The notes below the pieces were generated by a model. The model worked only from the letters and a program-made list of their open reading frames with translations, was not told where the DNA came from and did not search any database. A DNA stretch of 64,000 nucleotides, from NCBI GenBank assembly GCA_040757335.1, contig JBFLXB010000019.1, forward strand, positions 1 through 64,000. The letters are read 5' to 3'. Below, one piece after another: positions 11,048-59,469 of this stretch. A program made the translations under genes and the position numbers. This DNA comes from Nitrospirota bacterium (GTDB taxonomy: Bacteria > Nitrospirota > Nitrospiria > 2-01-FULL-66-17). The first letter of the stretch is position 1. Each line of letters starts with the position of its first letter.

Positions 11048-11404
11048 ATGGGGTCGTGTATCCGACGAATTACCTCTCCGTTGGCCGCGCGAAGGCGCTT
11101 CCGCGCCACCGCCGCGGTCCTGCTTCTTGCCTACTTTGCGCTCGCAGGCGAGGCGATCCATTGCCAGTACTTCCCCACCGCGCACAACGAACACGCCGAC
11201 CACTCGACCACGCCGGTGCCCGCCACGGACCACGCGATCCATTGTCTGGTGGCGAATCACGCGGGATCCGCCGCTGTCAACGCCGACGGGTCCGCGCCGC
11301 TCCCGACCCTAACCCCCAACGTCCGCATCCTCTCGGACGAAGGACCTTCGCTCGTCTCGCACCTGGTCCGGCTCACGCCGGTCCGCGCACCGCCCGTTAG
11401 CTAA
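11048..11404 (+). CDS. Exported His/Cys-rich small protein
   Basis: A protein of about 118 residues with a basic N-terminus and one hydrophobic segment (FRATAAVLLLAYFALAGEA), then a short His/Cys-rich portion (AIHCQYFPTAHNEHADH, later DHAIHCLVANHAG). Two IHC motifs plus clustered His suggest metal binding outside the cytoplasm; this is inference from composition. Start choice is uncertain: GTG at 10988 gives 20 more residues, and neither start has a strong ribosome site. It follows metH by 72 bp and precedes the outer-membrane/cytochrome gene run on the same strand. I recognise no family. Confidence 0.55.
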   Translation: MGSCIRRITSPLAARRRFRATAAVLLLAYFALAGEAIHCQYFPTAHNEHADHSTTPVPATDHAIHCLVANHAGSAAVNADGSAPLPTLTPNVRILSDEGPSLVSHLVRLTPVRAPPVS

Positions 11405-11514
11405 CCCTCAGACATTCTCCATTTCGTTGCCGTAGGGCTGCAGTGCTCGCATCGTTGTGCGCGAGCGGCGGTCCGTTGAATTCATACTTTTCTTGATCGG
11501 CAAAGGAGAAGCCC

Positions 11515-12354
11515 ATGCAGGGAAGGGTGATCGGCACGGCCGCACTGGTAATTGTCCTGTCCGTGTTTGGCCAGGAGGCATTTGGCGCCCACATTCTCGA
11601 GCCATTGAACACCGAGATCGCCGCGACAACGCCGCGCGGCCGCATGTTCGGGCAGATCGTCTACGATTACGCGAAGTTCGAAAACGGAACGACCGTCAAG
11701 ACTCACTTGCTCCCGGTGGAGTTTGAGGTGGGCGTTGGCGAGCGTACCCAACTGAATCTGGAAGGAGTCATCGTCCTCCGCGAGGACACCGCAGGGGTCG
11801 ATGAAAGCGGGGTCGATGAACTCGCCTTCGGCGTCAAGCAGCGCTTTTGGGACGAAGGGCGTGTCGCGCCGGATATGGCGTTCGAGGCCGAATACGTCCC
11901 GTCGGCGGGGCTGACCGGCAACCACAAAGCCGTCGCCGCCACGCTGATCCTCTCAAAGAACGTGACGCCGCGATTCGTCCTGCACGTGAACGGCGGGTAC
12001 GAACTGGAAACCGAGCGGGAAACTGAGATCGAAACCGCGCCCGTGGGCATCGGCGGAGAGGACGTGGTGGTTGGCATCGCAGAGGAAGCCCACAACGAAG
12101 CGATCTGGTTCTACAACGTGGCGCCCATGATCAAGGTCATCCCAGACAAGCTGATGGTGTTGGCGGAATTCAACGGCCGCACCCCGGCGTCCGGCGATAC
12201 CGTGATGGTCGTCGCGCCGGAGATTATTGCGGTGCTCCAAAGCGACACGTTTCTCGCGCTTCAGAACGTCGCGTTCAAGTTCTCCGTGCCGTTCGGGCTG
12301 AATGACGAGTCGCCGGACATGGGGTTCCAATTCGGGATCTCGAAGTTGTTTTAA
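11515..12354 (+). CDS. Outer-membrane beta-barrel protein
   Basis: A 279-residue protein with a signal peptide (MQGRVIGTAALVIVLSVFGQ, cleavage near EAFG). Its body consists of alternating short amphipathic strands such as KTHLLPVEFEVGVGERTQLN, DELAFGVKQRFW and RFVLHVNGGYELE. It ends in an aromatic residue (FQFGISKLF), as expected for recognition by the barrel assembly machinery. AAAGGAG lies 7 nt before the ATG. The pattern resembles small transporter-like or porin-like barrels; no specific substrate can be named. It is the first of four closely spaced genes leading to the cytochrome-porin gene, so a shared role in the outer membrane is likely. Confidence 0.75.
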   Translation: MQGRVIGTAALVIVLSVFGQEAFGAHILEPLNTEIAATTPRGRMFGQIVYDYAKFENGTTVKTHLLPVEFEVGVGERTQLNLEGVIVLREDTAGVDESGVDELAFGVKQRFWDEGRVAPDMAFEAEYVPSAGLTGNHKAVAATLILSKNVTPRFVLHVNGGYELETERETEIETAPVGIGGEDVVVGIAEEAHNEAIWFYNVAPMIKVIPDKLMVLAEFNGRTPASGDTVMVVAPEIIAVLQSDTFLALQNVAFKFSVPFGLNDESPDMGFQFGISKLF

Positions 12355-12362
12355 CGCTCGCG

Positions 12363-12388
12363 CGGGTGGGCGCAAACGCGCCCACCCG
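12363..12388 (+). other. Perfect 11-bp intergenic hairpin
   Basis: CGGGTGGGCGC, a 4-nt loop, then GCGCCCACCCG form a perfect stem 8 bp after the barrel gene stop and 17 bp before the next start. There is no following U-tract, so a processing, stability or partial-attenuation role is likelier than full termination. Confidence 0.6.
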
Positions 12389-12404
12389 TCAATGGAGAAC
12401 AACC

Positions 12405-13085
12405 ATGCAGATCACCACAAAAGCCGGATTGATCGCCGTCCGGTGGGCCATGTTGGCGGTCATGCTCGCGGCGACACCGGTCGCCGCCCACGAGATCGTG
12501 GGGCAGGTCACCCCCTTGATGATCCACATGAAGCGGGCGCTGCTCCTCGCTGAAAACGGCAAGGCGCAGGAGGCGGTGGCCGAAGCCCGCGCCGTGTACG
12601 AGGACTTTGCCCATGAGATGGGCATGGGGATGACGATGGAAGGCGCGGGCTTGAAGAGCACCGCCGCGCAGATCGATCGAACCTTTGGCACACGGTTGGG
12701 CGAATCCCTGGAGCAGTCCCTTCAACGGAACGACGCTGACACGTTGAAGAAGACCATCCAGGAACTCGCCCTGCTGCTGATGATAGAGAAATTCAACGCG
12801 CTCCAAGCGAGCTTCGGCAAAGACACGGTGACGCTCGACACCCAGCGGACCATGTTCTGGCTCGGCCGAAACTACTTCTCCTATCTTCTTGAACCTACGC
12901 TCGCCGCCAAGGATCCGATCGAAGAGCAGCGCCTGGACCGCATGCTGGACGTCATGTTGTATCGGCTCGAAGACGGAGAGCACCAAAGTTTTCTCGATGC
13001 CAGACGAAACTTGCTGGGAGGGATTACCACGGCGTTTCGCTTGACGCTTCCGCAACAAGCCTCGGCGGGAATTCCTCGCGGATGA
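12405..13085 (+). CDS. Secreted alpha-helical protein, possible N-terminal histidine after cleavage
   Basis: A 226-residue exported protein. Signal peptide MQITTKAGLIAVRWAMLAVM ends PVAA, and the likeliest cleavage leaves His as the first mature residue (HEIVGQVTPLMIHMKRALLL). The rest is predicted helical, rich in Glu, Lys and Leu, with two Met-rich stretches (HEMGMGMTMEGAG and LLLMIEKFNAL). GGAG precedes the ATG by 8 nt. I recognise no family. Histidine and methionine content would suit copper or iron handling in the periplasm, but that is inference. The stop overlaps the start of the following membrane protein (ATGA), so the two are translationally coupled. Confidence 0.65.
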   Translation: MQITTKAGLIAVRWAMLAVMLAATPVAAHEIVGQVTPLMIHMKRALLLAENGKAQEAVAEARAVYEDFAHEMGMGMTMEGAGLKSTAAQIDRTFGTRLGESLEQSLQRNDADTLKKTIQELALLLMIEKFNALQASFGKDTVTLDTQRTMFWLGRNYFSYLLEPTLAAKDPIEEQRLDRMLDVMLYRLEDGEHQSFLDARRNLLGGITTAFRLTLPQQASAGIPRG

Positions 13086-13714
13086 AGATCACGCCGAACG
13101 ATCCGCAAACCTCCGTTGATCGGACCGGAGGGCTCAAGCTCCCCTCGCCGTGGGTGATCCTCGCCTGCCTGGTCCTGTTCGGTTTCGGGGAGACCGCGGG
13201 CGCGGCGCTGGGCGGACTGCCCAAACCCATTATGGACGTTGCCCGCGCGCAAGCCGTGACCCGGCCGGAAGTCCACGGCCTGTCCGGCGTGCCGGACATC
13301 GATCGTGCCATCATCGAAGGCGTGCAGACCGAGGTGCTGGCGCGGGTCCATACGTTTCATCTTCACGGTCACGGCCTGGCCATCGTGGTGTTTCTGCTGA
13401 CCTTTATCGTCACGAACACCGGCTTCACGCCTCGCGTCAAGACGCTGCTCACGACACTGACTTGCCTGGGCCTGCTCTATCCCTTTGGCTGGCTGACCAT
13501 GGCCTTGGCAGTGCCGGTGGCCGGGAAGGCGGAGGCCTTCCGCATCGCGGAACGTTGGTTTTTTATCCCCTTTGGCGGGGCGTTCTTAGTCGGGGTGTGG
13601 TTCATCGTATTGGCCTACACCGTCCACTGCCTGCGACGGAATGAAAAGCCGGCCCAACCTGTCTTGGAGGGAGGTGAGACTCAACCGTTTGAAAAACCGA
13701 ATAAGACTCCTTAG
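13082..13714 (+). CDS. Four-helix inner-membrane protein with His cluster
   Basis: A 210-residue protein with four hydrophobic segments: WVILACLVLFGFGETAGAAL, LAIVVFLLTFIV, LLTTLTCLGLLYPFGWLTMA and FIPFGGAFLVGVWFIVLAYT. A periplasmic-type loop follows the first segment and leads into VHTFHLHGHGL at the start of the second helix. A further His lies at the end of helix four (YTVHC). The paired helix histidines could bind heme b or a metal and could pass electrons between the quinone pool and periplasmic partners; that is a hypothesis only. ATGA overlap with the preceding gene, and 14 bp to the cytochrome-porin start, indicate an operon. Confidence 0.65.
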   Translation: MKITPNDPQTSVDRTGGLKLPSPWVILACLVLFGFGETAGAALGGLPKPIMDVARAQAVTRPEVHGLSGVPDIDRAIIEGVQTEVLARVHTFHLHGHGLAIVVFLLTFIVTNTGFTPRVKTLLTTLTCLGLLYPFGWLTMALAVPVAGKAEAFRIAERWFFIPFGGAFLVGVWFIVLAYTVHCLRRNEKPAQPVLEGGETQPFEKPNKTP

Positions 13715-13728
13715 CGGGAGGGCCGCTT

Positions 13729-15186
13729 TTGTGTAATTGGAAACCCCGCGTCCTCCTGGCGAGTTGGATCGCGGTGTTCGGGTTTAGCCTACTGGCTGCG
13801 TCACGGGTGGAAGCCATTCCGGCCTTTGCCCGCAAGTACGACATGGATTGTAGCCATTGCCACGTGATGGCGCCGAAACTCAACAAAGTCGGCAACAAGT
13901 TTCACGACAACTTCACGCTTAAGGAGGCCGTTGCCGACCTCTCGGAAGAGATGCGTGATCGCATCAAGTCAGAAGACCCCGAGGATATCCACCCGGCGTA
14001 CTGGCCCGTGTCGATCCGCGTGGCCGGGGGCTACCAGTACAACAAACGCGACAACCAGGCAACCGACAACGGACTGGAGACGATCACTACCCGGACGTTC
14101 GCGCTGACGCGTTTCGAAATCCTGGCCGGCGGCCTGTTTACGCCGGGAATTTCATACTATCTGACCTATTACCCGGAAGCCCTCAACGTGGGCCTGCCAG
14201 GCCAGCCGCCTGTTCACGCCCATCCGGGCGCGACCTCCGGAACAGCACAGGTGGGGGCCCTGGGGTTCGCATGGGTGCGGTTTGCCGACATCTTCGGCCA
14301 ATTCAGCGAAGCCGAGGATCACCCGCATGACGACGCGGCCGCCGATGAACATCCCCACGACGCCGAGGCCGAGCAGAAACACGAACACGGTCAGGATTTG
14401 ATCTTCGGCAGCCACGAGCTGCACCTGACGCTCTCCGGCCATCATCGGCTCACCAATGCTCCCTACCTCGCCTATCGGTATGACCCACGCTTCTCCCTAA
14501 ACTCCTCCGAGGGATTCCAGCTCGATGCGCCGCAACTGGGCGCGTCGCTGGACGGCGCGACCCCGTGGTTCGGCTACGCGGTCTCGGTGTACAACGGCAC
14601 CACCAGCTCAGCCGACGACAACCGCGCGCTGGATGTCTTTGCCACCGTGACCCAGGAATTCGGCGATCAGCGCTTTGGCGTCTTCGGCGTGCGGGGGATG
14701 GCCCCGACGAGCTTCGTGACCACCGGGGGCGGGACCACTCCGATTGCCGGGACCGGCAAGGATAACGCGGCGTTCTATCGCTTCGGAGCCGACGCCGATC
14801 TCAACTTCGGCCCGTTCAATCTGATGCTATTTGCGTTGTACGGGCAGGACGACAAGGATCTGTTCGGCACATCGTCCGCCACGCAGGACGCGAAGTACTA
14901 CAGCGGATTCATCGAGGGTGACTACATGCTCGAGTCGACCCGGACGATCGTGCTCGGACGCTACGACCTGATCCGCAACCTCGAACAGGGCATCAGCACC
15001 AACCCCAAGCAGCGCGGGGACGCCGATGCCCTCACCCTGGCCGTGCGGCGCGATCTCGTCCTGACGAGCCGCGTCAACCTTCAGTTCCAGTTGGAGGCGA
15101 ACACCATGCGCACGAAGGCCACGGCCCTGGGTGACAACGATCAGACCTCGAACACGGTATTTGCCGGGTTGGATTGGTCGTTTTGA
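13729..15186 (+). CDS. Monoheme cytochrome c-outer membrane porin fusion (Cyc2-like architecture)
   Basis: A 485-residue protein. The signal peptide is followed directly by IPAFARKYDMDCSHCHVMAP with a C41-x-x-C44-H45 heme c site, then PKLNKVGNKFHDNF. The remaining roughly 400 residues are alternating amphipathic strands of a beta-barrel and finish with GLDWSF. A His/Asp/Glu-rich loop at residues 195-221 (EDHPHDDAAADEHPH) could bind metal. One heme fused to a porin is the layout of Cyc2, the outer-membrane Fe(II) oxidase, whose usual length is also close to 485; many relatives are of unknown function. TTG is the start: GGGAGG lies 7 nt upstream and the nearby GTG is out of frame. It is the terminal gene of a four-gene run. 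Confidence 0.82.
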   Translation: MCNWKPRVLLASWIAVFGFSLLAASRVEAIPAFARKYDMDCSHCHVMAPKLNKVGNKFHDNFTLKEAVADLSEEMRDRIKSEDPEDIHPAYWPVSIRVAGGYQYNKRDNQATDNGLETITTRTFALTRFEILAGGLFTPGISYYLTYYPEALNVGLPGQPPVHAHPGATSGTAQVGALGFAWVRFADIFGQFSEAEDHPHDDAAADEHPHDAEAEQKHEHGQDLIFGSHELHLTLSGHHRLTNAPYLAYRYDPRFSLNSSEGFQLDAPQLGASLDGATPWFGYAVSVYNGTTSSADDNRALDVFATVTQEFGDQRFGVFGVRGMAPTSFVTTGGGTTPIAGTGKDNAAFYRFGADADLNFGPFNLMLFALYGQDDKDLFGTSSATQDAKYYSGFIEGDYMLESTRTIVLGRYDLIRNLEQGISTNPKQRGDADALTLAVRRDLVLTSRVNLQFQLEANTMRTKATALGDNDQTSNTVFAGLDWSF

Positions 15187-15264
15187 TGAGTCTGTTGCCG
15201 CAAAACACGAAATATTTCACCATTGGGTGATCGCTAAGCCCAAGGATATTAAGGAGTTTTGACG

Positions 15265-17718
15265 ATGGCGCGATTGTTGCTGTGTGGAGTGCCTGGAATG
15301 ACCAGAGCACGGTGGCAGAGCTCAGCAGTCGCGGTCTTGGGCGCGCTACTCGCGGCGTGCGCAACAGACAGCGCACCCGTTGGAACGCTTTCCGGAAGCA
15401 GCGGGCTGGTCACCTCGGGAGCCAGCACGCTCAACGGGACTGTCGGGGTCCAATACCCCAACGTCACGTTCTCGGTCGAGGACAGCACCCCTGGCGCTCT
15501 CTTTTATTGGACGGTCTCGGGATCGTTGCCTCCCGGCCTCACGGTGACACCGGCCAACAATGCCACGCTTTCGAACACGTTGGTCCTCTCCGGCACACCC
15601 ACGACCGCGGGTCAGTTTCCGTTTCAGATTACAGTACACACGTCTGATCATAGCCTGCTGATCTCCGCAGCTTCCCAGGTGGTGACCATTGCGGGCGCGG
15701 GTGGATCGCCGGTCGTGATCGCGTTACCGTTTACCTGGATCGTCAATGTGGCCGACGAGGAGATCCTGGGTGTGATCGGGGGACAGCCGCTCTACACCTG
15801 GTCTGCGACAAACTTGCCGCCCGGCGTGACGCTGAATCAAACCGAGGGGAAGCTCTCCGGAACCGTGACGTCGGTAGGTTCGTATCCGATCAACGTCACG
15901 GTGACAGACTCGGCAGGTAATCAGGGCAACGGAACGGTGACGCTCACGGTGATCTCCCTTGCCACGTACCAAGGAACGTGGACCGGAATTGTCCAGGGCG
16001 GCCCGTTTACCGAACAGCGGCTGAGCCTGTTGCTCAATCAAAGCGGTCTGGCCGCGCAAGCCACACTCGACGGGCTGATCCTCGCCAGCCCCAGCCAACC
16101 GCTCCAGTTTACCTATGACACCACGCCGGGGTTCGTGGGAATCAACAAGTTTATTAGCCAGATCAACTGGCACCTGGTGTGTCTCTTAAACGATGCCACT
16201 GGGGATCTTGACTGCGCCGTGCATGATGGTTTGGGTGGCAATTCAGTCAATGCCACCGCAGTGCTCAAGAACGTGAGCCAAGCCAGTCAAGACACCACGG
16301 TCCCTACGGTCGCGAGTACGACCCCCGCGAATGGAGCAACGGGCGTCACGGCGAGCCAGGTCACCGTGGTGTTCAACGAACTGATGTCTGGAACCGGAGG
16401 AACCGCGATCACCTTGAGCGGTGGGTCCGGAACCGTAGGAATCCCAAGCTACGCTGACACGACCACTGATCCGGCCTCGCGCACGCTGAGGATCCCGCTT
16501 TCGGGACTTCAGGACAACACGTCGTACACCGTCACATTGAACCCTTCGGGTCAAACGGGATTCTTCGATCTCGCGGGAAATCCGCTGGCCACAACTTCGA
16601 TCTCGTTCACGACCGCGGCGGTTGTCGCGAACAATCCGCCGACCGCAAACCCAGACAGCTACACGACGCTCCTCGGCGCTCCACTGCAGATCACGCTCGA
16701 AGGGTCCGATCCCGAAGGGGGAGCGCTCACGTATACGGTTGTGAACCCGCCAGCGACAGGCACTCTGACACCAAGCGGCACGACCACAACCGGGGACCGG
16801 ACGTACACGCCCGCCGTGGCCGGCCCGGTCAGCTTTACGTTTATTGTGACCGATCCCCTTGGCAGCCAGTCGTCGCCGGCGACAATCAACATTACCGTCC
16901 AACAGCCCCCAGTCGCCCAAGCTCAGGGGCTCGCCATTATGCAGAATACGTCGGCGGCGATCACCTTGGAAGGCACAGCGGAACCAGGCGCCACGATCAC
17001 GGCTTACACGATCGTGCCTGGAAGCGGCCCCACCAACGGCACGCTCGTGCCGGGGGGAAGCGGCAGCTCGCACACCTATACGCCCAACACCTCGTTCATC
17101 GGGACCGACCGCTTCACGTTCACCGTGACGGACTCGAGGGGTCTGGTCTCGGCGCCGGCCACGGTCACCATCGTCGTCAGCCTGACCGAGCCGCCGGTCG
17201 CATTCGACCAGACGATCATTATTGGGCGACGCACGGGCACTGTTGCGGCCCAATGGGCCATCTTTCTGAGTGGCAGCTCATCGGCGGTGCGGTTCAAGAT
17301 CGTCAGGTGGCCCACGTACCAGGACTACAACTACGTGGGAATATGCGGCACCACTACTGACCCCACCATCCCTCAGGATGGGCCCTGTTCTGTCATGGAT
17401 TATGTGGGGGGCCGGACCTACCAAACCGGCTGGACTGCCATCGACGGCGGGACAAGGAAGCCCACCGTGACGCCCGAAGTCGGCACATCGTCAGTAGTGG
17501 ACCTTCAGCTTGCAAGCGGACTGCCGTCGCCGCAATCCACAGGCAACATCACCGTCACGGGATCGCCCTATGCCGTCGTGTATACCGCCACGATCTGTCA
17601 CTTCCAGGACTTCTCTCAGGATTCTTTTGATTTTGTCGCCATTGACGCAAATGGCGTGGAATCCGCACCGGCAACTGTGACGATTCTTCCCCGAAACCAA
17701 TGCGTCGGCACCCACTAA
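15265..17718 (+). CDS. Large surface lipoprotein with Ig/cadherin-like repeats
   Basis: An 817-residue lipoprotein: the signal ends LLAAC with lipidated Cys32, and AAGGAG lies 8 nt before the ATG. It is built from repeated beta-sandwich modules. Two putative-Ig (He_PIG-like) units with LPPGLTVTPANN and LPPGVTLNQTEGKLSG come first. A Big_5/SbsA-like unit follows (PTVASTTPANGATGVTASQV ending FDLAGNPLA). Cadherin-like units come next (NPPTANPDSYTTLLGAPLQI; SFTFIVTDPLGS; DRFTFTVTDSRGL). The final 180 residues contain several cysteines and no recognised domain. Such proteins act as adhesins or surface scaffolds. It follows the cytochrome-porin gene by 78 bp and may be part of the same unit. The N-glycine/threonine-rich composition is normal for this class. 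Confidence 0.82.
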   Translation: MARLLLCGVPGMTRARWQSSAVAVLGALLAACATDSAPVGTLSGSSGLVTSGASTLNGTVGVQYPNVTFSVEDSTPGALFYWTVSGSLPPGLTVTPANNATLSNTLVLSGTPTTAGQFPFQITVHTSDHSLLISAASQVVTIAGAGGSPVVIALPFTWIVNVADEEILGVIGGQPLYTWSATNLPPGVTLNQTEGKLSGTVTSVGSYPINVTVTDSAGNQGNGTVTLTVISLATYQGTWTGIVQGGPFTEQRLSLLLNQSGLAAQATLDGLILASPSQPLQFTYDTTPGFVGINKFISQINWHLVCLLNDATGDLDCAVHDGLGGNSVNATAVLKNVSQASQDTTVPTVASTTPANGATGVTASQVTVVFNELMSGTGGTAITLSGGSGTVGIPSYADTTTDPASRTLRIPLSGLQDNTSYTVTLNPSGQTGFFDLAGNPLATTSISFTTAAVVANNPPTANPDSYTTLLGAPLQITLEGSDPEGGALTYTVVNPPATGTLTPSGTTTTGDRTYTPAVAGPVSFTFIVTDPLGSQSSPATINITVQQPPVAQAQGLAIMQNTSAAITLEGTAEPGATITAYTIVPGSGPTNGTLVPGGSGSSHTYTPNTSFIGTDRFTFTVTDSRGLVSAPATVTIVVSLTEPPVAFDQTIIIGRRTGTVAAQWAIFLSGSSSAVRFKIVRWPTYQDYNYVGICGTTTDPTIPQDGPCSVMDYVGGRTYQTGWTAIDGGTRKPTVTPEVGTSSVVDLQLASGLPSPQSTGNITVTGSPYAVVYTATICHFQDFSQDSFDFVAIDANGVESAPATVTILPRNQCVGTH

Positions 17719-41354: not shown

Positions 41355-42545
<1,191 letters not shown>

Positions 42546-58278: not shown

Positions 58279-59469
<1,191 letters not shown>

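Follow-up and report, generated by a model that had tools for sequence, protein, structure and literature searches.

Does a gene for a Cyc2-like cytochrome-porin tell us that the genes around it form an electron conduit? This question is raised by a six-gene locus in the first 64,000 nucleotides (nt) of contig JBFLXB010000019.1 of a Nitrospirota bacterium (assembly GCA_040757335.1), a stretch that we call the window; its genome is a 3.56 Mb draft of 61 contigs that is 99% complete. Cyc2-type cytochrome-porins are usually thought to take electrons from metals outside the cell, and their genes are widely taken as markers of iron oxidation. A previous reading of the window, made from the letters alone (the sequence-only reading), had proposed that all six genes, here called A to F, together could carry electrons between an outside metal or partner cell and the inner membrane. 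Our comparison with other genomes instead divides the locus into two units, A-B-C-D and E-F. In our judgement there is an even chance that A-B-C-D is an operon for handling metal that responds to a metal, most likely copper, with A as its leader gene, and that E-F is a separate Cyc2-type pair.

11048-11404, + strand: gene A, 118 amino acids (aa), hydrophobic N-terminus
11515-12354, + strand: gene B, 279 aa, 12-stranded outer-membrane barrel, hydrophobic N-terminus
12405-13085, + strand: gene C, 226 aa, exported all-helical protein, hydrophobic N-terminus
13082-13714, + strand: gene D, 210 aa, four-helix membrane protein with HxH
13729-15186, + strand: gene E, 485 aa, TTG start, Cyc2-like monoheme cytochrome-porin, hydrophobic N-terminus
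15265-17718, + strand: gene F, 817 aa, surface lipoprotein with immunoglobulin (Ig) repeats, hydrophobic N-terminus

Two units in one locus

All six + strand open reading frames (ORFs) lie where the sequence-only reading had placed them, and we regard them as real genes because homologues in conserved order occur in other genomes. E-F is a pair separate from A-D, since it occurs without A-D in a second genome of the same family (G199, locus L072), which has kept E (57% identical), F and the thi4 gene behind them; this draft is 88% complete, and neither B nor C turned up in it. B-C-D in turn usually occurs without E, so that the proposed single six-gene conduit does not hold. The block B-C-D-E (11515-15186), whose conservation had been named as a check, recurs in other genomes as B-C-D, B-C or C-D, but E is not part of it. 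Among the genomes compared here the six-gene arrangement has so far been seen only in the window genome, as follows from B-C-D and E-F occurring apart elsewhere. The intergenic gaps from A-B to E-F are 110, 50, -4, 14 and 78 nt, with a terminator-like hairpin between D and E (13713-13727). Terminator and promoter predictions were not above chance, and an Rfam search returned no elements.

Gene A and the B-C-D module

The sequence-only reading had described A as an exported His/Cys-rich protein. Export and the Cys/His motif stand, but A is better read, from its layout, as a candidate leader gene (upstream ORF) for a copper-sensing arrest peptide of the CutF/CruR type than as a structural protein. 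Copper-dependent control by a nascent exported peptide has been shown experimentally for CutF and CruR (PMC9973294, PMC9426467). In vitro, CruR has been shown to arrest at RAPP, and bacterial proteomes otherwise strongly avoid RAPP/RSPP motifs (PMC12992588). Two elements of A may correspond to these precedents:

11243-11260, + strand: CLVANH, putative metal-binding motif of A, matching in position and spacing the CxxxC/CxxxH of other A genes
11384-11395, + strand: RAPP, arrest-type motif of A, assigned from its sequence and from PMC9426467 and PMC12992588

The protein ends in RAPP-VS, with CLVANH 41 residues upstream of RAPP. Like known leader ORFs it is shorter than 150 aa, exported, carries PP within its last 15 residues and is the first gene, on the same strand, upstream of metal genes; 8 of 8 A-type ORFs head either the module or a cytochrome unit in genome G155. 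To describe this layout we used a rule composed after the first cases had already been seen (a Cys/His motif, 39-47 residues, then RxPP at most 8 residues from the end) and scanned 1659 ORFs of 60-160 aa from 39 loci (491 kb). Twenty-two end in RxPP, and eight of them also carry the metal motif at the required distance, with an observed spacing of 41-43. On the module strand, each of the eight immediately precedes B, D or, in G155, a tetraheme-plus-Cyc2-like unit; they include window A, the Dadabacteria locus and three tandem copies in G218. A deltaproteobacterial locus has a similar Cys-rich ORF with an RSPP end that fails the metal-motif rule, and no A was seen at one of two B-C loci of G198. 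The metal motif is mostly CxxxC and once CxxC, with C-x4-H in window A and C-x3-H in G198. In three A proteins DUF2946 (Pfam PF11162) gives alignments that run through the C-terminus but stay below threshold (E 0.023, 0.035 and 1), and it has no match in the window genome. A match of A to ActA was at chance level.

CutF (Rhodobacter cutFOG), CruR (Bordetella cruR-bfrG-bp2921) and DUF2946 proteins share with A a small exported leader ORF with a Cys-type motif, to which CLVANH is a putative counterpart; in CutF and CruR, as in A, the ORF comes first in a metal operon and has a C-terminal proline motif (RxPP in CruR). CruR, like A, heads an outer-membrane transporter gene and a four-helix inner-membrane gene. 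The genes behind A are nevertheless B-C-D, unlike the multicopper oxidase/chaperone or TonB-dependent transporter/PepSY_TM genes behind CutF and CruR, and A itself differs in falling below the DUF2946 cut-off, in its altered metal motif and in the 41-43 spacing.

Judged by gene order and homology, B-C-D is a rare conserved block, found entire or as B-C or C-D. The sequence-only reading had called these genes unfamiliar, and so they proved: none of the libraries searched names the module, which is apparently an undescribed conserved one spanning three compartments. In a search of 247 genomes of the class, strong B matches are confined to the window genome, G155, G198 (two loci) and G218; a pattern scan of an 84,980-species genome collection added two loci, in Dadabacteria CSP1-2 and a deltaproteobacterium. 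We counted only close members as B because a phylum-wide search with the B profile returns a broad barrel family, most examined loci of which adjoin tat genes. C directly follows B at 7 of the 7 B loci; altogether, 10 of 270 class genomes have a C gene. D follows B-C in the window, in G218 and at one of the two G198 loci; the order is D-B-C in G155, where B is split across two overlapping contig ends, and a C-D pair without B occurs in family f2 and in G325.

The predicted small outer-membrane barrel was borne out for B by an AlphaFold2 model with 12 strands (predicted local distance difference test score, pLDDT, 72), whose nearest solved fold is FapF (Foldseek E 8.8e-8); the other channels matched include the COG4313 channel (E 9e-5). 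B and E both end in Phe, which is typical of outer-membrane barrels. Although B shares its fold with the 12-strand outer-membrane channels of the PF13557/FapF/COG4313 type, it is unlike them in scoring below the PF13557 cut-off (E 0.004; 17.6 bits against 22), in its conserved AHILEPLGTEIAATPPRGR start and in its partner C. Strong PF13557 barrels reached by the B profile adjoin feoB, in the order feoA-feoA-feoB, in two genomes and cbiM in another (L127, L131 and L135). Such neighbours of B-like barrels suggest metal uptake, through outer-membrane channels that may each be specific for a metal.

C was likewise correctly described as a secreted helical protein: behind its hydrophobic N-terminus, the AlphaFold2 model (pLDDT 83) is all-helical except for one hairpin. 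That sole beta-hairpin, a region of lower model confidence, holds a Met motif; other copper proteins use Met-rich motifs of the HxMGMGMxM kind to bind Cu(I). An EfeO/imelysin or FTR1-type domain was considered for C and rejected (best Foldseek E 0.25; EfeO-like Algp7 E 0.59, TM about 0.27). D has the four hydrophobic segments and the HTFHLHGHG cluster attributed to it, and H93, H95 and a YP..W motif are invariant across its close and distant homologues. Assignment of D to HupE/UreJ or PepSY_TM was dropped, as neither gave a Pfam match, and sequence searches for solved relatives of C, D and E returned none that was significant. Distant D-family proteins (HxH, YPxxW) adjoin response-regulator and histidine-kinase genes at L023 (6533-9891) and L024 (4626-7328); at L023 a PepSY protein also stands beside the D-family protein.

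12612-12638, + strand: HEMGMGMTM of C, putative Cu(I)-type Met motif, HxMGMGMxM kept in 4 loci and missing from 6 other C proteins
13358-13366, + strand: HxH of D, whose two His (H93, H95) are unchanged in 8 homologues

The Met motif of C, together with multicopper oxidase and plastocyanin genes near C-D elsewhere, suggests copper as the likely metal. Three f2 genomes encode a multicopper oxidase (Cu-oxidase domains, Pfam E about 1e-30) and plastocyanin-like proteins within a few genes of C-D. The window genome itself has seven cupredoxin matches above cut-off and several multicopper oxidases, so its copper demand is probably high. A, the Met motif and the genes found beside C-D and beside B-like barrels favour a role in handling metal (copper) over one in electron transfer. 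The conserved f2 locus around C-D (L105, L106, L022 and L109, the last ending at C) holds multicopper oxidase, cupredoxin, CarboxypepD_reg-like, radical SAM, TPR and NHL proteins. Three open frames of 1631-1701 aa (G000 C1:113269, C1:284830 and C6:39072) have several Cu-oxidase_3 matches and encode giant multicopper oxidases; Mn(II) oxidases of this size are known. In G218 a gene for a CDF cation transporter follows B-C-D. G155 shows a looser form of the six-gene arrangement: behind B-C comes another A-type ORF, and then genes for a tetraheme NapC-like cytochrome, an E relative and a small partner.

The E-F pair

E carries AIPAFARKY followed by CSHCH-VMA-PKL, matching AXPXFAR[Q/K][T/Y] and CXXCH with PXL four residues downstream, the published Cyc2 consensus (PMC8406198). 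The sequence-only reading had taken IPAFARKY...CSHCH as a possible sign of a clade outside Cyc2; because the motif, PKL included, is the exact consensus, it is no such sign. With a single CxxCH and 485 aa behind a hydrophobic N-terminus (Cyc2 length, at least 365 aa plus signal peptide), E is Cyc2-like by published sequence criteria. The CxxCH, whose conservation had been proposed as a check, is invariant in a 17-row alignment (A5); it is also present in all 22 relatives in our tree, which were chosen by that motif. As to the fused 16-strand outer-membrane porin of Cyc2, E has the terminal Phe, aligns over its full length with relatives and gave only a weak CopB-barrel match. Weak thioredoxin/PDI matches around the heme motif were set aside. 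F has an LAAC lipobox and Big_9, Big_5 and He_PIG domains, in keeping with the surface lipoprotein foreseen for it.

13849-13863, + strand: CSHCH heme motif of E, the one CxxCH
14296-14397, + strand: His-rich insertion of E, 6 His in 34 aa

This insertion is common to E and its same-family orthologue at L072 (7 His in 55 aa) and absent from the other 15 aligned relatives, which have a short turn there; by the usual barrel topology the turn would face the periplasm. Matches to E occur in 122 of 247 class genomes, and none of its relatives was found on plasmids or viral contigs. Cyc2 homologues have already been reported from Nitrospirota, and those of Nitrospirales and Candidatus Troglogloeales/Manganitrophaceae are of the same general type as E (PMC9040806). 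Our tree groups E with its G199 orthologue, the paralogues named E2 and the proteins of G155 and G129, and separates this clade from the f2 proteins (SH-aLRT 99); most of the f2 proteins, which are probably of Nitrospira type, fall in a clade of their own. Compared with Cyc2 of Mariprofundus PV-1 and Acidithiobacillus, E shares the AXPXFAR[QK][TY] motif, one CXXCH with PXL, a signal peptide, length and terminal Phe, but it belongs to a Nitrospirota clade of its own, has the His-rich insertion, is paired with an Ig lipoprotein and stands behind a CutF/CruR-like operon.

Two paralogues have neighbours of their own. E3 (L029 6548-8334) stands back to back with a CusCBA-like RND operon, which is headed by a 144-aa exported ORF that ends in RAPP and lacks Cys. 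E2 (L028 7189-9398) has a 107-aa protein with a His-rich tail upstream and downstream a small partner gene (BiPBP_C match) that recurs beside the E relative of G155.

Proposed copper handling and its alternatives

If A-B-C-D is a copper-responsive operon, the nascent exported A peptide would, on the CutF and CruR precedents, capture metal with its Cys/His motif during a ribosome pause at RAPP and in this way set expression of the genes downstream. B, a channel by its modelled fold, would admit the metal through the outer membrane; C, a periplasmic helical protein, may bind Cu(I) through HxMGMGMxM, and D may be the inner-membrane partner whose HxH site receives or passes on the metal. The likelier direction would be acquisition, or delivery to periplasmic copper proteins. 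We tentatively prefer acquisition to detoxification, as efflux genes are absent and barrels resembling B accompany uptake genes. E-F, 14 nt behind D, may share the A-D operon and would add a redox activity, with electrons plausibly passing to one of the genome's cupredoxins. That B-C-D is a new uptake or delivery route under a copper-sensing arrest peptide, and that this Cyc2-type clade is controlled by or acts on copper and not iron, we consider doubtful though conceivable; iron oxidation by E is unproven.

Several observations weigh against copper handling under leader A. Window A lacks a second Cys (CLVANH, not CxxxC), the spacing from motif to RxPP, though constant at 41-43 in all eight A proteins, is shorter than the 45 (within one or two) of CruR, and A scores 10.5 bits against the curated DUF2946 cut-off of 23.7. 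Shielding of the B ribosome-binding site in the RNA was not above shuffles (21% unpaired; 13% of shuffles equally low), and a CutF-type stem-loop over the next ribosome-binding site was not seen at the other A loci. We therefore call A no more than CutF/CruR-like, since it falls below the cut-off, lacks the second Cys and shows no stem-loop shielding beyond that of shuffles. CutF-like proteins can also sense other metals (PMC9973294). The Foldseek search found no significant fold match for C (best E 0.25), whose Met motif is absent from the proteins of G155, Dadabacteria, the deltaproteobacterium and f2, and the f2 C-D loci are probably one inherited locus.

These points leave room for three other explanations. 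A-D could be a CutF-CutO-like copper-induced operon for detoxification, with E oxidising Cu(I) or otherwise replacing a multicopper oxidase. CutF is copper-inducing, most A motifs share the CxxxC form of CutF, multicopper oxidases lie near C-D elsewhere, E has its His-rich insertion and paralogue E3 adjoins the CusCBA-like operon; yet the window operon has no efflux pump or ATPase, and B has a channel fold whose PF13557 relatives adjoin the uptake genes feoB and cbiM, so we hold detoxification to be unlikely. Rather unlikely, too, is the electron conduit itself, in which E would be a Cyc2 Fe(II)/Mn(II) oxidase, F its surface partner and B-C-D auxiliaries carrying electrons to the inner membrane. 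In its favour, E has the motif, length and single heme of Cyc2 and starts 14 nt behind D, and in G155 the tetraheme cytochrome and E relative come just behind B-C. B, C and D, however, have no heme c motif, E-F occurs without A-D in the same family, B-C-D mostly lacks E (G198, G218, Dadabacteria, the deltaproteobacterium), and the function of Cyc2 outside Cluster 1 is termed uncertain by its authors (PMC8406198).

The remaining explanation, in which A senses Ni, Co, Zn or Mn and B-C-D handle that metal, seems to us quite improbable. It would account for the Cys/His pairs of window A (C-x4-H) and G198 A (C-x3-H) in place of two Cys and for the CDF gene after D in G218, and His-only CutF-like proteins head HupE/UreJ nickel/cobalt genes (PMC9973294). 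It fits poorly with the CxxxC of the other A genes of the module, with the Met motif of C and with the multicopper-oxidase and plastocyanin neighbours.

The finding, with copper-responsive metal handling as the preferred reading, is a new combination of known kinds (an arrest-peptide leader, an outer-membrane channel and a Cyc2-like protein) around an apparently undescribed module. A Cyc2-like gene beside a copper-type leader, directly behind one in G155, warns against reading such genes as iron-oxidation markers and suggests another, testable role. Gene A would give a direct handle on what B-C-D handles and, if the reading is true, CutF/CruR-type arrest peptides would extend to Nitrospirota, Dadabacteria and new targets.

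Elsewhere in the window, two EF-Tu genes (41355-42545 and 58279-59469) are of equal length, with N-termini identical over the residues compared; paired EF-Tu genes are common in bacteria.

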